Origin: Parcubacteria group bacterium ADurb.Bin305
GTDB lineage: Bacteria; Patescibacteriota; Minisyncoccia; UBA6257
Length of the DNA stretch: 32,666 nucleotides
Direction of reading: 5' to 3'
Assembly (NCBI GenBank): GCA_002069525.1
Contig: MWBJ01000004.1
Coordinates: forward strand, 1 to 32,666
The translations under genes and the position numbers were made by a program. The notes beneath the pieces were generated by a model. That model was not told the DNA's origin, searched no databases, and worked only from the letters and a program-made list of their open reading frames with translations. This document shows positions 10,169-32,523 of the stretch, piece after piece. Within the stretch, counting starts at the first letter, position 1, and each line of letters opens with the position of its first letter.

Positions 10169-11323
10169 TTAGTGATACCTATTATTACTAAAGACTCTTT
10201 GGCATCCTATCATTTCTTGGCAAGAGATAACATTGTAGCCATGGCAAATTCCCCAAGGTCCATAATTAGTGGCTGTGGGGTAATCAAAGGAAGAATTAAT
10301 TGCGCATTGAGAACAAGCTTTGTCAGGTTGCGGTGTTGGTTGGCATTCATAGCAGCAAATTCCGCCAGCGTTGCAAACACAATCAGTGTCTACTTGATAT
10401 AAACAATCTAGTCCGCAACCATAGTATCCGCGATAACTGGTAGCTCTTAGTGCCTTTTTACAATCAAAAATAGATTCAGGTGTATTAGGTCGCCATACGC
10501 CACCACCGCAACCAAAACCATTTCCTTTGGCAAAATAACCCGGAACTTTTTGCACTACACAATTAGTAAATCCACCTTTATAGCCAGTGCAATGACCCCA
10601 GCGTTTTTGGCAATGCAATTCGTCTGTGGGAATTTCACCTATTTCACCTTCGTTAACCACAGTGTTGATTCCTGCTTTTTGCGGTTGCCAAGTGCAATCT
10701 TGGTCATAACCATAAGGCTTGGCAGCGCTATAAGTTGGTAGGCAGTCCACATCGTCGTCTGTTTCACCATCACAATCTTGGTCTCTGCCATCAGGAATTG
10801 TGGTAGTAAAAGGCGAATTTTTATAGCAAGTAGGGCAATTTTCATCGCAATCTTCTCCTTTCCACCAGTAATAACCGTCACCATCGCAGTCCATAAATAT
10901 TGGGCAAGGTGGATCAGCTGGTCTGCTCGGGGCTTGACAAAGATTGGTTCCTTTACCTACCCCCCAAGGTTCGCATTCTATTAACCCAGCAGTTTCCCAC
11001 GGTCTAATATAAAATCTATCAACTGCTTGATTATAACTAGAAGTATCAACTTCGGGTGACAAAGTTGAAGTTTCTGTGCTAGCTGGGGCATTACTTAGAG
11101 CTGCTGTTAACGCTAGAGGTTGATTGGGCCATTGAGGAATCAAAGTCGTAGTAAAAAAATCCTTTAAAAATTCCAAGGGATTATTTCCAATAGTTGGACT
11201 AGCACCTCCTAGAGATGTTATTGCGCTTTCCTCCATAGCTAAAACTACTCTTCCTTGTGTTAAGAAGGGAATAATAATGAAGGCCAATAGGTAAATTAGT
11301 AGATTGTTTCTCAATAATTTCAT
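10169..11323 (-). CDS. Cys-rich secreted protein with MopE-like metal-binding motif (copy A)
   Basis: This 384-aa protein has a signal peptide (residues 1-30, LLRNNLLIYLLAFIIIPFLTQG) and a Ser/Thr-rich linker. At about 140-195 is a calcium/copper-type motif of the MopE kind: MDCDGDGYYWWKGEDCDENC, then PDGRDQDCDGETDDD. The rest is dense in Cys, often paired (CCYEC, CSQC), and ends with a conserved block YPTATNYGPWGICHGYN. Aspartate-rich DxDxDG loops probably bind calcium, and the Cys residues suggest disulfides outside the cell. It is a tandem paralog of the gene at 11413-12561; the last ~83 coding nt are almost identical between the two. Function is unknown; an adhesin or apparatus cap is possible. 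Confidence 0.82.
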   Translation of the reverse strand: MKLLRNNLLIYLLAFIIIPFLTQGRVVLAMEESAITSLGGASPTIGNNPLEFLKDFFTTTLIPQWPNQPLALTAALSNAPASTETSTLSPEVDTSSYNQAVDRFYIRPWETAGLIECEPWGVGKGTNLCQAPSRPADPPCPIFMDCDGDGYYWWKGEDCDENCPTCYKNSPFTTTIPDGRDQDCDGETDDDVDCLPTYSAAKPYGYDQDCTWQPQKAGINTVVNEGEIGEIPTDELHCQKRWGHCTGYKGGFTNCVVQKVPGYFAKGNGFGCGGGVWRPNTPESIFDCKKALRATSYRGYYGCGLDCLYQVDTDCVCNAGGICCYECQPTPQPDKACSQCAINSSFDYPTATNYGPWGICHGYNVISCQEMIGCQRVFSNNRYH

Positions 11324-11412
11324 TAGCTGTGTTGGTAAAACTTTTTATTTTTTTATTTTTTTATTTTCTTGGTCAATGACTTAGTGATTAAAATTCATCA
11401 GTGATAATTATT

Positions 11413-12561
11413 TTAGTGATAAGCGTTAGGAATAATTTTTCTAGAGCAACCTATCATTTCTTGGCAAGAGATAATATTGTAGCCATGGCAAATTCCCCAA
11501 GGTCCATAATTAGTGGCTGTGGGGTAATCAAAAGTAGCATTAATTTTACATTGAGAGCAAGCATCGTCAGATTCTAAAACTGGATGACAGGCCTCGCAAC
11601 CACCACAACCATAATAACCTTTATAGCTGTCTGTTCGTAATGATTTTTTACAATCAAAGATAGCATCTTTTTCTGTTTTATCGCGCCAGATACCGCCACC
11701 ACAATTGTAACCGCTGCTTTTGACAAAATAACCGGGATTTTTGGCGATAGTGCAATTAGTATAACCTCCTCTATAATCAGTGCATTGACCAAAAATTTTC
11801 TGGCAATGCAAATCATCAGTAGGTATTTCTCCCATTTCCCCTTCATTGACTAAAATATTTTTAGGCTGAGATAACCAATTGCAGTCTTTATCATAACCAA
11901 AAGGTACTGGATCTTCAGCATATTGGGGTATACAATTTATTAAATCATCTACTGTGCCATCACAGTCTTGATCTCGGCCATCAGGTAGAGAGGTTGTATG
12001 CGGTGAGTGTTCGTAGCAAGTAGGACAATTTTCGTCGCAATCTTTGCCTTCCCACCAGTAATAACCATCTCCGTCGCAATCCATAAATATTGGACATGGT
12101 GGATCGCCAATCAAATTACCGGGCAGACAGGCGCTATACCCTTGTCCCGGTCCCCAAGGCTCGCACTCTACTAGCCCCGGCTCTTTCCAAATTAAAAGTT
12201 CGCCCAAATTAAATTTTGACATATCCTTTAATGGCAGGGGTAAAAATAATTTAGGCAAAGTGGGCACTCGACTGCTGGCAGCCAATAAAGCCTCGGCTGA
12301 TTTTACTGAAAAATTTTGAGGGCTTGTGGTAATTGGGGTGGGTTGAGACAAAGTTGTGGGGGAAGTTTCTAAGGGAAAATCTGTTAGAGGCGCAATTGTA
12401 TTGTCAGACGATCCATTTTGGCAACTAGAACAGCCAGATGATTGAGGCTGGTTAATGTTTTGGGTGTTTGCTATGATGCCTTGGTCAATCCAAATAAATA
12501 TTATTATCAACACCAAACAGCAGGTAAAAATAAATATGAAAGGAAAATTTTTAGTAGGCAT
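11413..12561 (-). CDS. Cys-rich secreted protein with MopE-like metal-binding motif (copy B)
   Basis: This 382-aa paralog of the gene at 10169-11323 has the same layout. An N-terminal hydrophobic anchor or signal (FPFIFIFTCCLVLIIIFIWI) is followed by a Cys pair region (CSSCQNG), a Pro/Thr-rich linker, the MopE-like block (MDCDGDGYYWWEGKDCDENC, then PDGRDQDCDGTVDD) and a Cys-rich C-terminus. It lacks the ~20-residue insert with clustered Cys (TDCVCNAGGICCYECQ) seen in copy A and has a CGGCEACHP stretch instead. It is the first gene of the minus-strand run, 78 nt after rsmA ends. No Shine-Dalgarno site is seen; the start context is AAAATTATG. Function is unknown. Confidence 0.82.
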   Translation of the reverse strand: MPTKNFPFIFIFTCCLVLIIIFIWIDQGIIANTQNINQPQSSGCSSCQNGSSDNTIAPLTDFPLETSPTTLSQPTPITTSPQNFSVKSAEALLAASSRVPTLPKLFLPLPLKDMSKFNLGELLIWKEPGLVECEPWGPGQGYSACLPGNLIGDPPCPIFMDCDGDGYYWWEGKDCDENCPTCYEHSPHTTSLPDGRDQDCDGTVDDLINCIPQYAEDPVPFGYDKDCNWLSQPKNILVNEGEMGEIPTDDLHCQKIFGQCTDYRGGYTNCTIAKNPGYFVKSSGYNCGGGIWRDKTEKDAIFDCKKSLRTDSYKGYYGCGGCEACHPVLESDDACSQCKINATFDYPTATNYGPWGICHGYNIISCQEMIGCSRKIIPNAYH

Positions 12562-28705: not shown

Positions 28706-29047
28706 ATCAGGTATAAAAATTAATATCTTTGAGCAGTATAATGATTATCTTAATTTTATTAATCATAGTATAAACAATAATTTTTTGTTTAGCAAGATAG
28801 AAGCTCTCAGAAAATTTCTCCAGTTATAAATATCTGATTTTTTATTAAATAATCTTGGTTGTAGGTCAAATATTTCTCAAGTCCTGCAGAGTTCTTAATG
28901 ATTATTGGGAATTGCGGCAATTAATTATAATTAATTATTTTGTTTTGAAACTTCAATTTGCTTTTTGATTTTGAAGTTTATTCTCTGGTATGCTCTCAGT
29001 AAATAAAAATAAATTCAAAATACCAATCTCAAAATGCCCAAGGCATA

Positions 29048-29124
29048 ATTCATAATTCATGATTCATGATTCTTGATTCTTAATTCATAATTCTTGATTC
29101 ATGATTCTTAATTCATCATTCATA
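29048..29124. repeat. Heptamer tandem repeat, ATTCWTR, 11 units
   Basis: Eleven uninterrupted 7-bp units of the form ATTC(A/T)T(A/G) run from 29048 to 29124; only one unit ends in C instead. A looser twelfth unit (ATTTGTC) follows. The array lies 33 bp upstream of the -35 box of the DGR target gene. Confidence 0.88.
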
Positions 29125-29156
29125 ATTTGTCATTTTACACTACCCAATTCGAATAC

Positions 29157-29214: not shown

Positions 29215-30717
29215 ATGTCTTACCAACACTTAGGATTAAGATCTAAAAGTTTTACTTTAATAGAGCTTTTAATCACTATCGGAATAATAGCTATTTTATC
29301 AACTTTGCTTCTAACTGTCTTAAATCCTTGGGAGATGATTGCTCGTTCCAGAGACACCAAAAGAATAACTGAATTAAGAGAATTAGCTCAAAATATTTCT
29401 TTACTCATTGCTCAGGATTTTACAGGCAATATTTCCTTAGGCAACCCTAATACTGTCTATGTTTCTTTGCCTTCAGATCAACCTGACTGTTCAGACCTAC
29501 ATTTGCCTGCCCTGCCTGCCCCTTGGATCTATCATTGCTCTAATTCTAATAATTTCAGAAAAGTTGATTCCTCTGGCTGGCTTCCTATTAATTTTCAAGA
29601 AGGAGGCGCTATTCAATTAAGCGCTTTACCTCTTGATCCTCAAAACACCTATACCCAGAATCTAACCAATAGAGATGACCTATTTTTCACCTATGCTGTG
29701 GGCGCTGATTTAGAGTTTGAATTAAACGCTAAAACAGAATCTATTAAATACGGTTTTAAAGACAGAGATATGTTCCCTATCATTAATCCTGCCACTTATG
29801 ACAATCCTTTATCAGATGGCGGAGACAATGGCTTGTATGAAACAGGTTCTTTATTAACTCTTATTCCTGATTCTGGAGGTCTGTGCCCTTCTGGTATGGT
29901 CTATGTCCCAGCCCCTTTAAGAATCTGCCTTGATAGATATGAAGTTTCTTATTCCAACTCAGGAACTAAACCAGATGGCACCTATTGTAATGCTCGCTGT
30001 CCTTTATCTATTCCTAATGCCAATCCTTGGACTTCTCGTTCTGGCTGGCCCAGTGTACCTCAAGATGATGGCGTGCGGGAAACCGGAGCTTCAGCTGATG
30101 ATGCCCTTGATTATTGCGCTAATATGGGTAAAGTCCTGCCTACTGATTTTGAATGGTACCTAGGAGCCGCTGGGACTCCTGATCCATATAATTCTAAACC
30201 CTCAAGAATTACAGGTTCTAATGTTGAAGGTCCTGAACCTTGTATGATTTGGAATACTGATTCCACTGATAACCTAGTAGAACGACCCCAAGGCTCTACC
30301 CAATGCGATGATGGTTATACTTGGGGTTCTGACATCAATCCTAACATTAAAACAGGCACAGCTTTACAATGTATCTCTCTTGTTGGAGCTTATGATATGA
30401 TTGGCAATGTCTGGGAATGGGTCAATGACACTAAAAACACTAATGATATTTATTCCAGCGGCAACACCAAAGTCCCTAATTCAAATAGAACCATAGCCCA
30501 AATTAACAACTACGGAGTCCCTGTTGATGCAGGAGGTACTTCTTGTTCTGGTTTGTGCAATTCTGATTATTACTGGGTAACTTCTGGTTCTTTAACAGCT
30601 GGCCTCCGTTCTGGCAGTTGGGACTATGGCGCGAATGCGGGGCGATTTTGTTTGCGTTTGAACTACGCGCCGTCGGGCCCGGGCCGCACTGTGGGGTTTC
30701 GGTGCGCCCTCAGGTAG
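29215..30717 (+). CDS. DGR target protein: prepilin-like N-terminus with C-terminal FGE-sulfatase/C-type-lectin-like domain
   Basis: This 500-aa protein is the diversified product. A short basic leader precedes SFTLIELLITIGIIAILSTL (12-31), a class III signal of type IV pilins and pseudopilins with Glu at position 5 of the mature form (E17); Ser replaces the usual Gly before Phe13. Residues 40-195 look like a pseudopilin globular part. Residues ~222-500 are an FGE-sulfatase domain (CPSGMVYVPA, then GAYDMIGNVWEWVND, then GFRCALR), the C-type-lectin fold used by known DGR targets. The last 37 codons are the variable repeat. Nine residues differ from the template: D470, Y471, R481, Y484, G488, P489, G490, R491 and T492. 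The protein would show its variable face on a pilin-like or membrane-anchored stalk. Confidence 0.9.
   Translation: MSYQHLGLRSKSFTLIELLITIGIIAILSTLLLTVLNPWEMIARSRDTKRITELRELAQNISLLIAQDFTGNISLGNPNTVYVSLPSDQPDCSDLHLPALPAPWIYHCSNSNNFRKVDSSGWLPINFQEGGAIQLSALPLDPQNTYTQNLTNRDDLFFTYAVGADLEFELNAKTESIKYGFKDRDMFPIINPATYDNPLSDGGDNGLYETGSLLTLIPDSGGLCPSGMVYVPAPLRICLDRYEVSYSNSGTKPDGTYCNARCPLSIPNANPWTSRSGWPSVPQDDGVRETGASADDALDYCANMGKVLPTDFEWYLGAAGTPDPYNSKPSRITGSNVEGPEPCMIWNTDSTDNLVERPQGSTQCDDGYTWGSDINPNIKTGTALQCISLVGAYDMIGNVWEWVNDTKNTNDIYSSGNTKVPNSNRTIAQINNYGVPVDAGGTSCSGLCNSDYYWVTSGSLTAGLRSGSWDYGANAGRFCLRLNYAPSGPGRTVGFRCALR
30601..30711 (+). repeat. DGR variable repeat (VR)
   Basis: This 111-bp segment at the end of the target gene aligns without gaps to 32194-32304. 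There are 13 mismatches, and each is at an adenine of the template copy (A to G 7 times, A to C 4, A to T 2). The 98 other positions, including 88 non-A template bases, are identical. The first 21 bp and the last 22 bp are unchanged. The final 22 bp (30690-30711) contain no A in either copy and stand where the initiation-of-mutagenic-homing sequence lies in known DGRs. Confidence 0.96.
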
Positions 30718-30764
30718 TCTTTACTTTACTTTACTTTAACCCTTAACTCTTGACTCTTTAACCC

Positions 30765-30807
30765 TTTAGCGACTTGGTAAGTCTTTATGACTTACCAAGT
30801 CGCTAAA
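30765..30807. promoter_or_regulatory. Perfect 19-bp-stem hairpin downstream of the VR
   Basis: TTTAGCGACTTGGTAAGTC and its exact reverse complement flank a 5-nt loop (TTTAT). It lies 53 bp after the VR end and 31 bp before the RT gene. It has no T-tract, so it is a poor terminator. In the Bordetella phage DGR a hairpin/cruciform just after the VR is needed for efficient homing. The TR has no such element after it. It may instead be an operator or mRNA structure. Confidence 0.82.
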
Positions 30808-30838
30808 TTCAAAAATCAAATTTTAATCTTTCTCTACC

Positions 30839-31870
30839 ATGAAAACATATAAGCATCTTTATTCTCAGATTTACGATTTCAGAAATTTATTAAAAAGTTA
30901 TTATCAAGCTAGAAAATGTAAAAGTGAAAAAAATTACATAATAGCTTTTGAGTGGAATTTAGAAAAAAATCTTTTCGAAATTCAGGAGCAATTGAAAAAT
31001 TGTAATTATCAATTTGGGCCTTATCACAGTTTTTATATCATAGATCCTAAAAAACGTTTAATTTTTGCCGCTCCTTTTCAAGATAGAGTTGTTCATCATG
31101 CTCTTTATAATATCATTGAGCCGATTTTTGATAAAAGCTTTATTTTTGATTCTTTTGCCTGCAGAAAAAACAAAGGGACGCATAAAGCTGTGGGGAGATT
31201 AAAAAAATTTATGCGTGCTTTTGGAGATGATCAATTTTATATCTTTAAAGCGGATATTAGGAAATATTTTCCAAGCATTGATAAAGAAATATTATTTTCT
31301 TTAATCCAGAAAAAAATAGCTGACCGGAAGGTTCTGTATTTAATAAAAAAAATCTTAGAATCAACTAAAGAACAGAAAGGCATTCCTATTGGTAATTTAA
31401 CCAGTCAGTTATTTGCCAATATTTACCTAAATGAACTGGATCAATTTGTAAAACATAAATTGCAAGTTGAATATTACTGTCGTTATGTTGATGATTTTAT
31501 CCTACTGCATAGAAATCGCAAACAGTTGCAAGAATGGAAGGAAATGATTAAAGAGTTTTTAAGCCAAAGCTTGCGGTTGGAATTACATACTAAAAAACAA
31601 GAAATTTTTCCGGCAAAAATCGGAGTTGATTTTTTAGGTTATCATATTTTTAGGGATCATATTTTAGTGCGCCAAACCACAGTTAGACGTTTCCTGCGCC
31701 GTTTTAAAAGCGGTAAAATGCCTCAGCAATCAATAAATTCTTATTTAGGTCATTTTAAATATGCCGATAGTTTTGGTTTGATGAAAAAAATTAATAAAAT
31801 TTATGTTGAAAGATATCCCGATTTTTCACAAAACCTACGAGTTGATGCTCTGGCTCTATCCTCAAGTTAA
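30839..31870 (+). CDS. DGR reverse transcriptase
   Basis: This 343-aa protein is a reverse transcriptase of the DGR type. It copies the template RNA with errors at adenines to make the cDNA that replaces the VR. Motifs in order: FAAPFQDRVVHHAL (76-89), FACRKNKGTHKA (106-117), motif A KADIRKYFPSID (137-148) with Asp139, motif GIPIGNLTSQLFANIYLNEL (181-200), whose GNLTSQ fits the altered QG motif of DGR enzymes, catalytic YVDD (216-219), and FLGYHIF (~263). There is no maturase, endonuclease or integrase domain, which argues against a group II intron or retrotransposon. The Avd-like gene begins inside its last 68 nt. No Shine-Dalgarno site is visible. Confidence 0.95.
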   Translation: MKTYKHLYSQIYDFRNLLKSYYQARKCKSEKNYIIAFEWNLEKNLFEIQEQLKNCNYQFGPYHSFYIIDPKKRLIFAAPFQDRVVHHALYNIIEPIFDKSFIFDSFACRKNKGTHKAVGRLKKFMRAFGDDQFYIFKADIRKYFPSIDKEILFSLIQKKIADRKVLYLIKKILESTKEQKGIPIGNLTSQLFANIYLNELDQFVKHKLQVEYYCRYVDDFILLHRNRKQLQEWKEMIKEFLSQSLRLELHTKKQEIFPAKIGVDFLGYHIFRDHILVRQTTVRRFLRRFKSGKMPQQSINSYLGHFKYADSFGLMKKINKIYVERYPDFSQNLRVDALALSSS

Positions 31871-32159
31871 TAAATTTCCCAAAAATCAAAGGTTTGTTTT
31901 GGGTCAAGAGATTGAAAAAACAGGCTTAAATTTTTTAAAATTGATTATCAGGGCTAACTATAATCAAGAAAAAAGTTTGTTTTTGAAAGAAGCCAGTATC
32001 GAAATAAATGTTTTATTGATTTTGATTCGTTTTTCTAAAGATTTGCATTTTTTGTCTAACAGGCAATACGAATTCGCGGCTTTACAAATTAACGACATTT
32101 CTAACATGTTAGGTGGCTGGTTAAAATATGAAGAACATAAACTCCGGGTTTTCAATTAG
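31803..32159 (+). CDS. avd: Avd-like accessory four-helix-bundle protein of the DGR
   Basis: This 118-aa protein matches the Avd / S23-like four-helix-bundle family that assists DGR reverse transcriptases, in known cases as a positively charged pentamer bound to RT and nucleic acid. It opens with IFHKTYELMLWLYPQVNKFP and then RFVLGQEIEKTGLNFLKLII, both typical of the family. Two more helices and a KYEEHKLRVF end follow. The conserved HKTYELMLWLYP block is encoded within the last 68 nt of the RT gene in another frame, so the overlap is real and not a start-site error. It ends 34 nt before the TR, giving the compact order RT-avd-TR. Confidence 0.88.
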   Translation: MLKDIPIFHKTYELMLWLYPQVNKFPKNQRFVLGQEIEKTGLNFLKLIIRANYNQEKSLFLKEASIEINVLLILIRFSKDLHFLSNRQYEFAALQINDISNMLGGWLKYEEHKLRVFN

Positions 32160-32193
32160 AGTCGGAGAATAATGTGGGGATAAAAGATATTAG

Positions 32194-32304
32194 GGCCTCC
32201 GTTCTGGCAGTTGGAACAATGGCGCGAATGCGGGGCGATTTTGTTTGAATTTGAACAACGCGCCGTCGAACACGAACAACAATGTGGGGTTTCGGTGCGC
32301 CCTC
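32194..32304 (+). repeat. DGR template repeat (TR)
   Basis: This 111-bp template lies outside any gene, 35 nt after avd. In VR reading frame it holds ten AAY codons and one ACG, the codons that give the widest range of residues when adenines change and avoid stops. Twenty-three adenines are present; 13 differ in the current VR. The template RNA is expected to extend on both sides of this segment. Confidence 0.96.
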
Positions 32305-32523
32305 TGTAGCTTTTCTTACGAGATAACCTCATAGTTCATCTTCTGGTTTATCTCACTCACGATAATCCTAATTTTATATGGGGTTATAGTGGGATTAATA
32401 GATTCGGCCTGATTTTCTAAGTTCAAGGACTTAGAAACCGCGCCGTCAAAGACTTCTGCTTTTATTCCTGTCCGGTCCTATAAGATAACTTTATATTTTG
32501 CGGGGCTGGATTAAAATAAAAAC
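32305..32523 (+). ncRNA. Probable 3' part of the DGR template RNA (structured, non-coding)
   Basis: No gene is supported here. In studied DGRs the region next to the TR is part of the template RNA and serves cDNA priming and protein binding. Two foldable elements are visible: GAGATAA/TTATCTC at 32320-32354, and TTTCTAAGT/ACTTAGAAA (9 bp, 6-nt loop) at 32414-32437. Directly after the second is CGCGCCGTC at 32439-32447, a nine-base copy of a TR segment (32259-32267) within a wider match of 13/15. Boundaries are inferred. Confidence 0.45.

Follow-up and report, generated by a model that had tools for sequence, protein, structure and literature searches.

A 111-bp repeat in the genome of Parcubacteria group bacterium ADurb.Bin305 raises the question of what process could make two copies of one sequence differ at adenines and nowhere else. 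The repeat is found within a stretch of 32,666 nucleotides (NCBI GenBank assembly GCA_002069525.1, contig MWBJ01000004.1, positions 1 to 32,666 of the forward strand; GTDB lineage Bacteria; Patescibacteriota; Minisyncoccia; UBA6257), and this whole stretch is referred to here as the window. The analysis presented below places the repeat within a complete and apparently intact diversity-generating retroelement (DGR) of the Patescibacteria, or candidate phyla radiation (CPR), that diversifies a pilus-like surface protein and likely alters the binding specificity of an adhesin, a reading to which a probability of roughly 0.93 is assigned.

Adenine-specific differences between two repeats

Pairwise alignment was repeated for the variable repeat (VR, 30601-30711) and the template repeat (TR, 32194-32304), both on the + strand. 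The two copies align without gaps over 111 bp and exhibit 13 mismatches, at repeat positions 22, 25, 55, 56, 64, 76, 77, 79, 82, 83, 85, 86 and 89. The TR base is A at all 13 of these positions; an initial annotation, made from the letters of the window, had reported the same 13 template adenines and no other difference, and the realignment reproduces them exactly. Given the composition of the TR (23 A, 27 C, 35 G and 26 T), the random expectation for 13 of 13 mismatches falling on its adenines is 3.8e-11. The flanks of the VR and TR are unrelated, and homology ends at both borders of the 111 bp.

The coding context of the repeat is revealing of its design. The VR comprises the last 37 codons of its gene ahead of a final Arg and the stop codon. 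In the TR the 23 adenines lie within 13 codons, mostly AAC or AAT, and no A-to-N change in these codons yields a stop; in theory about 9e12 peptides can be encoded. The residue changes from TR to VR are N to D, Y, R, Y, G, G, R and T, and T to P. In contrast to these codons, the G+C-rich last 22 bases of the repeat (30690-30711 in the VR, + strand) contain zero adenines and are identical between VR and TR; by analogy with known DGRs, this A-free end is a candidate initiation of mutagenic homing (IMH) site.

No further copy of the TR was found in the 573,528-base assembly (63 contigs, 90% complete), and the genome contains one RT (reverse transcriptase) gene. No second target matching the diversified domain, and no other VR for this TR, was found in the genome. 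The element thus has a single TR, a single VR and a single RT. Two TR-like scraps near the TR, at 32163-32179 and 32439-32453, were taken as chance matches (E 0.03-0.08 in a tiny search).

The RT, Avd and hairpin

The components on the + strand are arranged in the order target, hairpin, RT, Avd and TR. The RT (30839-31870, 343 aa; RVT_1 81.6 bits) carries IGNLTSQ, the DGR form of RT domain 4, at 31388-31408 and the catalytic YVDD at 31484-31495, both on the + strand, and these agree with the DGR-type pattern of [IVL]GxxxSQ together with YxDD. Its best match among solved structures is 8ub7 (E 1.2e-56 over aa 2-316), which we take to be the RT of Bordetella phage BPP-1. The gene for the accessory protein Avd (31803-32159, +, 118 aa) shares 68 bp with the 3' end of the RT gene, and its scores against NCBIfam NF033474 DivGenRetAVD (104 bits, cut-off 80) and Pfam bAvd PF22296 (77.7 bits) both exceed the cut-offs.

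A perfect 19-bp inverted repeat with a 5-nt loop (30765-30807, +) is located 54 bp past the VR and is a candidate DGR target hairpin or terminator; its DNA fold is calculated at -21.3 kcal/mol (z -12). A stem of at least 9 bp within 120 nt after the VR was found at 34 of the 90 loci from the order, compared to 16 of 450 control windows. The hairpin of the BPP-1 DGR has a role in homing, and the one found here may serve homing in the same way. An Rfam scan returned tRNAs only; inside the DGR it gave no match even at a permissive threshold of E 1. The pentamer CTTTA occurs in four exact copies (30719-30738) in the gap that separates the hairpin from the stop codon of the target.

With an RT, Avd, TR, a VR in a target of the FGE/C-type-lectin kind and a post-VR hairpin all present, the adenine-specific mutagenic retrohoming proposed in the initial annotation is strongly supported.

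A pilin-like stalk with a lectin-like head

The diversified gene (29215-30717, +) encodes a 500-aa protein with a type-IV-pilin-like N-terminus and stalk, an FGE-type C-type-lectin head and the VR at its C-terminus. The N_methyl family PF07963 matches aa 9-32 with 23.2 bits (cut-off 21.2). The prepilin signal and N-terminal helix, SKSFTLIELLITIGIIAIL (29239-29313, +), contain SFTLIELL, with Glu5 and a hydrophobic helix, and in an alignment of 19 homologues F13, L15, E17, L18 and L19 are invariant. A predicted model of aa 11-180 shows, with fair confidence, a long helix followed by a beta domain. The head (30082-30705, +) matches FGE-sulfatase PF03781 at aa 290-497 with 45.8 bits (cut-off 23.3). 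A profile search of solved structures also leads from the head to FGE proteins, the top match being 5vf4, which is presumably TaqVP, and the VIA-align rows for the target hold C-type lectins and FGE at low Z. Since the VR stops one codon before the stop, it occupies the 3' end of a target with a predicted C-type-lectin fold.

The genome of the window also encodes pilus machinery, including a prepilin peptidase (PF01478), T2SSE ATPases (four matches) and eight N_methyl proteins. Two paralogues of the pilin stalk are found in this genome (G000), at C9 18270-18788 (L150) and C14 15563-16117 (L149), and are 49% and 55% identical, respectively, to the target over the stalk. One of the two possesses a Laminin_G_3 lectin head and the other is truncated by the contig end; pilin stalks with exchangeable lectin heads form one family in this genome. 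Upstream, 88 bp before the start of the target gene, 12 imperfect copies of a 7-bp repeat (CATAATT/CATGATT/CTTGATT) are found at 29044-29127, and these could vary promoter spacing.

Distribution of pilin-stalk targets in the order

The whole target was used as the query against 244 genomes of the order, and the counts that follow are among the matches listed. The first ~200 residues of the target belong to a multi-copy family with a match in at least 240 of the 244 genomes, mostly to the stalk part. Fewer matches extend over the full length, head included, and most of these adjoin an A-specific TR/VR pair, an RT and Avd. A pilin-stalk target is found beside a TR/VR pair for at least 18 of 130 tabulated RT genes, the window included; a diversified pilin-stalk target is therefore a recurrent solution in the order, with at least 17 further DGRs besides that of the window. 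The idea that the pilin target was unique to the window, which came from a regular-expression search that gave no pilin signal in ~65 targets of named relatives, was overturned by this order-level search.

The nearest relative with the architecture of the window is G170 (locus L133), a member of another family of the same order, whose target and RT are 52% and 66% identical to those of the window. Its gene order is target-RT-Avd-TR with Avd overlapping RT, and 11 of its 12 TR/VR mismatches are at A. The TR adenines of the two systems fall in matching codons (SWNNGANAGRF.LN.NN.P.NTN.N). The VR residues read D Y ... R. N Y ... G P G R T in the window and S N ... Y. S S ... G T G S T in G170. A comparison with the VR of relatives had been proposed as a check on retrohoming, and G170 indeed shows other VR letters at matching TR-adenine codons. 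This comparison indicates that the VR letters are independent between the two relatives and that the adenine design is conserved.

An RT match is absent from most genomes of the window's own family. In one of these genomes, G006, an RT remnant with several internal stops is found at C5 99167-99634 (L148), a case of DGR loss within the family.

Role, activity and age of the element

The proposed mechanism begins with transcription of the TR RNA, which would be copied by an RT-Avd complex with misincorporation opposite the template adenines. At the 3' end of the target gene, the cDNA would then replace the VR, with the A-free end of the repeat serving as the anchor and the hairpin possibly helping. 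The target would be processed by the prepilin peptidase, its N-terminal helix would anchor it either to the membrane or within a type IV pilus, and the FGE-type C-type-lectin head would be displayed with up to ~9e12 VR peptides. In a cultured Saccharibacterium, a member of the Patescibacteria, type IV pili help the cell bind its host (PMC12206443). For this reason the element most likely serves to alter what a surface or pilus adhesin binds, with host cells or other partners as plausible ligands; cultured Patescibacteria are obligate episymbionts (PMC12206443). The element is presumably active at present, the protein may be assembled into a pilus, and the cell would benefit from a head that can change its ligand.

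Several findings weigh against this reading. The pilin match barely exceeds its cut-off (23.2 versus 21.2 bits), though the 19-homologue alignment backs the pilin signal well. The FGE head is modelled poorly (mean predicted local distance difference test score 40; low in two AlphaFold runs), for which reason the head was assigned from Pfam and the profile search of solved structures, and exposure of the VR residues is suggested by the protein family. The post-VR hairpin could instead be a transcription terminator. Finally, the VR is known from one assembly, the sole member of its genus among the genomes compared.

Three other explanations bear on different parts of the argument. An ordinary duplication of a gene segment followed by divergence, or a fragment of the target left as a pseudogene, would fit a downstream copy that lies in the same orientation and outside any listed gene; it is already refuted by the placement of every difference on adenines of one copy (13/13, 3.8e-11) and by the RT and Avd that sit between the copies, a pattern that recurs across the order, and its probability is accordingly negligible. 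The DGR might also have been active once and now be silent in this lineage, through loss of RT expression or fixation of the VR. The lack of an RT match in most genomes of the family, with G006 keeping a remnant only, is in keeping with such a history, yet the RT, Avd and TR of the window are intact and 0 of 88 non-A sites differ between the repeats, so that present silence appears improbable.

The alternative with the greatest claim to attention concerns the target rather than the retroelement. The pilin-like N-terminus may be a membrane tether of the pseudopilin kind, in which case the DGR would vary a membrane receptor or a phage-exclusion factor, not a pilus adhesin. At 500 aa the target far exceeds the usual major pilins, and it is encoded on a different contig from the pilus genes of contig C1. 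On the other hand, the stalk (aa ~15-180) is modelled as a pilin helix and beta domain that weakly matches a type IVb pilus (Z 5.0), and a stalk paralogue bears another lectin head. The tether is regarded as a tentative, minority possibility, and the diversified pilus-like adhesin is preferred.

The initial annotation had further concluded, from the lack of other mutations since the last transfer, that the event was recent. The lack of non-A differences is confirmed, and this conclusion is partly supported, in a loose sense only. Zero differences over 88 non-A sites bound the divergence at ~3.3% (95%). Among TR/VR pairs of the order with at least 8 mismatches, 31 of 90 likewise have zero non-A mismatches (median 1), which makes the window pair typical for the order. 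Zero non-A differences are moreover a weak clock, as DGR copying resets the VR to the TR, and selection on the target gene also holds the non-A sites equal.

Putative phase variation of DGRs in relatives

A simple sequence repeat, in the form of a G tract (G9-14) or (GA)n, is found in the RT gene or at the Avd start for at least 72 of 130 distinct RT genes of the order. Across 153 DGR loci such repeats occur at 0.36/kb in RT regions, counted with 120 bp upstream, versus 0.026/kb elsewhere in those loci. If the count is restricted to units that contain G or C, RT regions hold 60 of the 81 repeats (binomial p 2e-40, a value that overstates the case as the loci are related). The site of the tract differs between groups. 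The pilin-target clade has its tracts, (GA)n or G, inside the RT near residue 126; in one short-target group they are also inside the RT, near residue 178 and directly before GIPIGNLTSQ. In the short-target clade the tract is upstream of the RT, where it falls in the opening codons of Avd on the reverse strand and reads as poly-C on the Avd strand.

These Avd-start tracts consist of poly-C (9-14) or CT/CAAC and are found at L192, L194, L197, L200, L202, L204, L207-L209, L212-L217 and ~35 more loci. At 50 of 50 such loci an ATG is present at most 52 nt before the tract with a frame open into it. The nearest upstream ATG shares its frame with the Avd body at 11 of the 50 (phases 0, 1 and 2: 11, 26 and 13), a test limited by how common an upstream ATG is in A+T-rich DNA.

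Many RTs of the order appear as two frames, with (GA)n or a G tract at the junction. Split genes and programmed frameshifts were rejected as explanations, since the junction (GA)n vary in length and frame. The tract interrupts the RT out of frame at L138, L143, L145, L220-L227 and L229-L232, its GA form coding for RERERE; at L138, for example, the RT extends over 10463-11738 and the GA tract over 11085-11125. Apart from the tract, the frames of the Avd body and of the two RT halves are open at the tract loci, and at the out-of-frame loci most TR/VR pairs are A-specific (e.g. 13/13 at L145, 17/17 at L220 and 20/20 at L227), which together suggest reversible switching rather than decay. Tract lengths, taken from consensus sequences of metagenome-assembled genomes, differ between sister loci (17.5 units at L230, 35.5 at L231), and at least 22 changes of tract state are placed on the RT tree.

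DGR hypermutation in this order is thus probably gated, in many cases, by phase variation in which slippage switches the mutator on or off per cell. No simple sequence repeat was found in the window's own RT or Avd, and the DGRs of the window and G170 are likely ungated. A phase-variable mutator acting on surface proteins would constitute a two-layer contingency system. Within a literature search of partial coverage, no paper was found that reports a phase-variable DGR RT or Avd, or DGRs with slipped-strand mispairing. Activity below average has been described for DGR clades 2 (CPR) and 3, and stronger control of the RT as a cause of differences among cellular DGRs was left open (Roux et al., PMC8144416). 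If the proposed gating is true, a mostly-off switch, with Avd in frame at 11 of 50 loci, would answer this question of RT control, and tract length should predict VR diversity. The tracts of the relatives therefore suggest a new control layer of DGRs.

In a single family of the order (genomes G194, G195 and G197), the RTs L190, L193 and L289 contain in-frame TGA within the conserved RT. One of these codons aligns with a Trp in G170, and reading TGA as sense lengthens the frames. Reassignment of TGA in this family is possible; L190 and L193 look decayed, yet some of their TGA codons may represent recoding.

Elsewhere in the window, positions 10169-12561 encode two tandem, similar Cys-rich proteins (384 and 382 aa) that are apparently secreted, both contain PCPIFMDCDGDGYYWW and have no Pfam match.

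Comparison with known systems

In a FastTree phylogeny of 199 RTs, those of the window and G170 are sisters with support 100. They are found in a half of the tree that includes the forward-Avd, pilin-target DGRs of the order as well as RTs of Chloroflexota, Bacillota and DPANN, and that is separate from the main CPR clade, which has reverse-strand Avd and short targets. Neither the reverse-strand Avd nor the short, unanchored target of that clade is found in the window, where Avd is forward and the target is a 500-aa pilin. In the targets of CPR clade 2 DGRs, a transmembrane segment or any other domain can usually not be recognised (Roux et al. 2021, PMC8144416). The window shares with these DGRs a Patescibacteria host and the cellular nature of the element, and differs from them in its same-strand Avd, its pilin target and its position in the tree.

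A second comparison is with the DGR of phage BPP-1 (mtd/avd/bRT). Both systems exhibit full-length RT homology, Avd, A-specific transfer from TR to VR, a C-terminal VR in a target of the C-type-lectin fold and a hairpin past the VR. Unlike the phage element, that of the window is cellular, its target has a pilin N-terminal anchor and its TR lies past the RT and Avd; its hairpin differs as well, with a stem of 19 bp and the loop TTTAT.

DGR targets of the FGE type include TvpA of Treponema and TaqVP of Thermus. The window target resembles both in its FGE-type C-type-lectin head and C-terminal VR, and possesses a type-IV-pilin stalk in place of a lipoprotein or other anchor. Putative pilin structures linked to DUF1566 are cited in a survey of DGR targets (PMC6642488). 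These targets are alike in joining a diversified domain to a pilin-like part, whereas the window has a head of the FGE-sulfatase family, in a combination that is found repeatedly across an order with a multi-copy pilin-stalk family. The DGR of the window is thus an element of a known kind, with a pilin-stalk target that is unusual but recurrent, and it offers a clean, minimal case in which an ultra-small bacterium directs hypermutation at a pilus-like protein.

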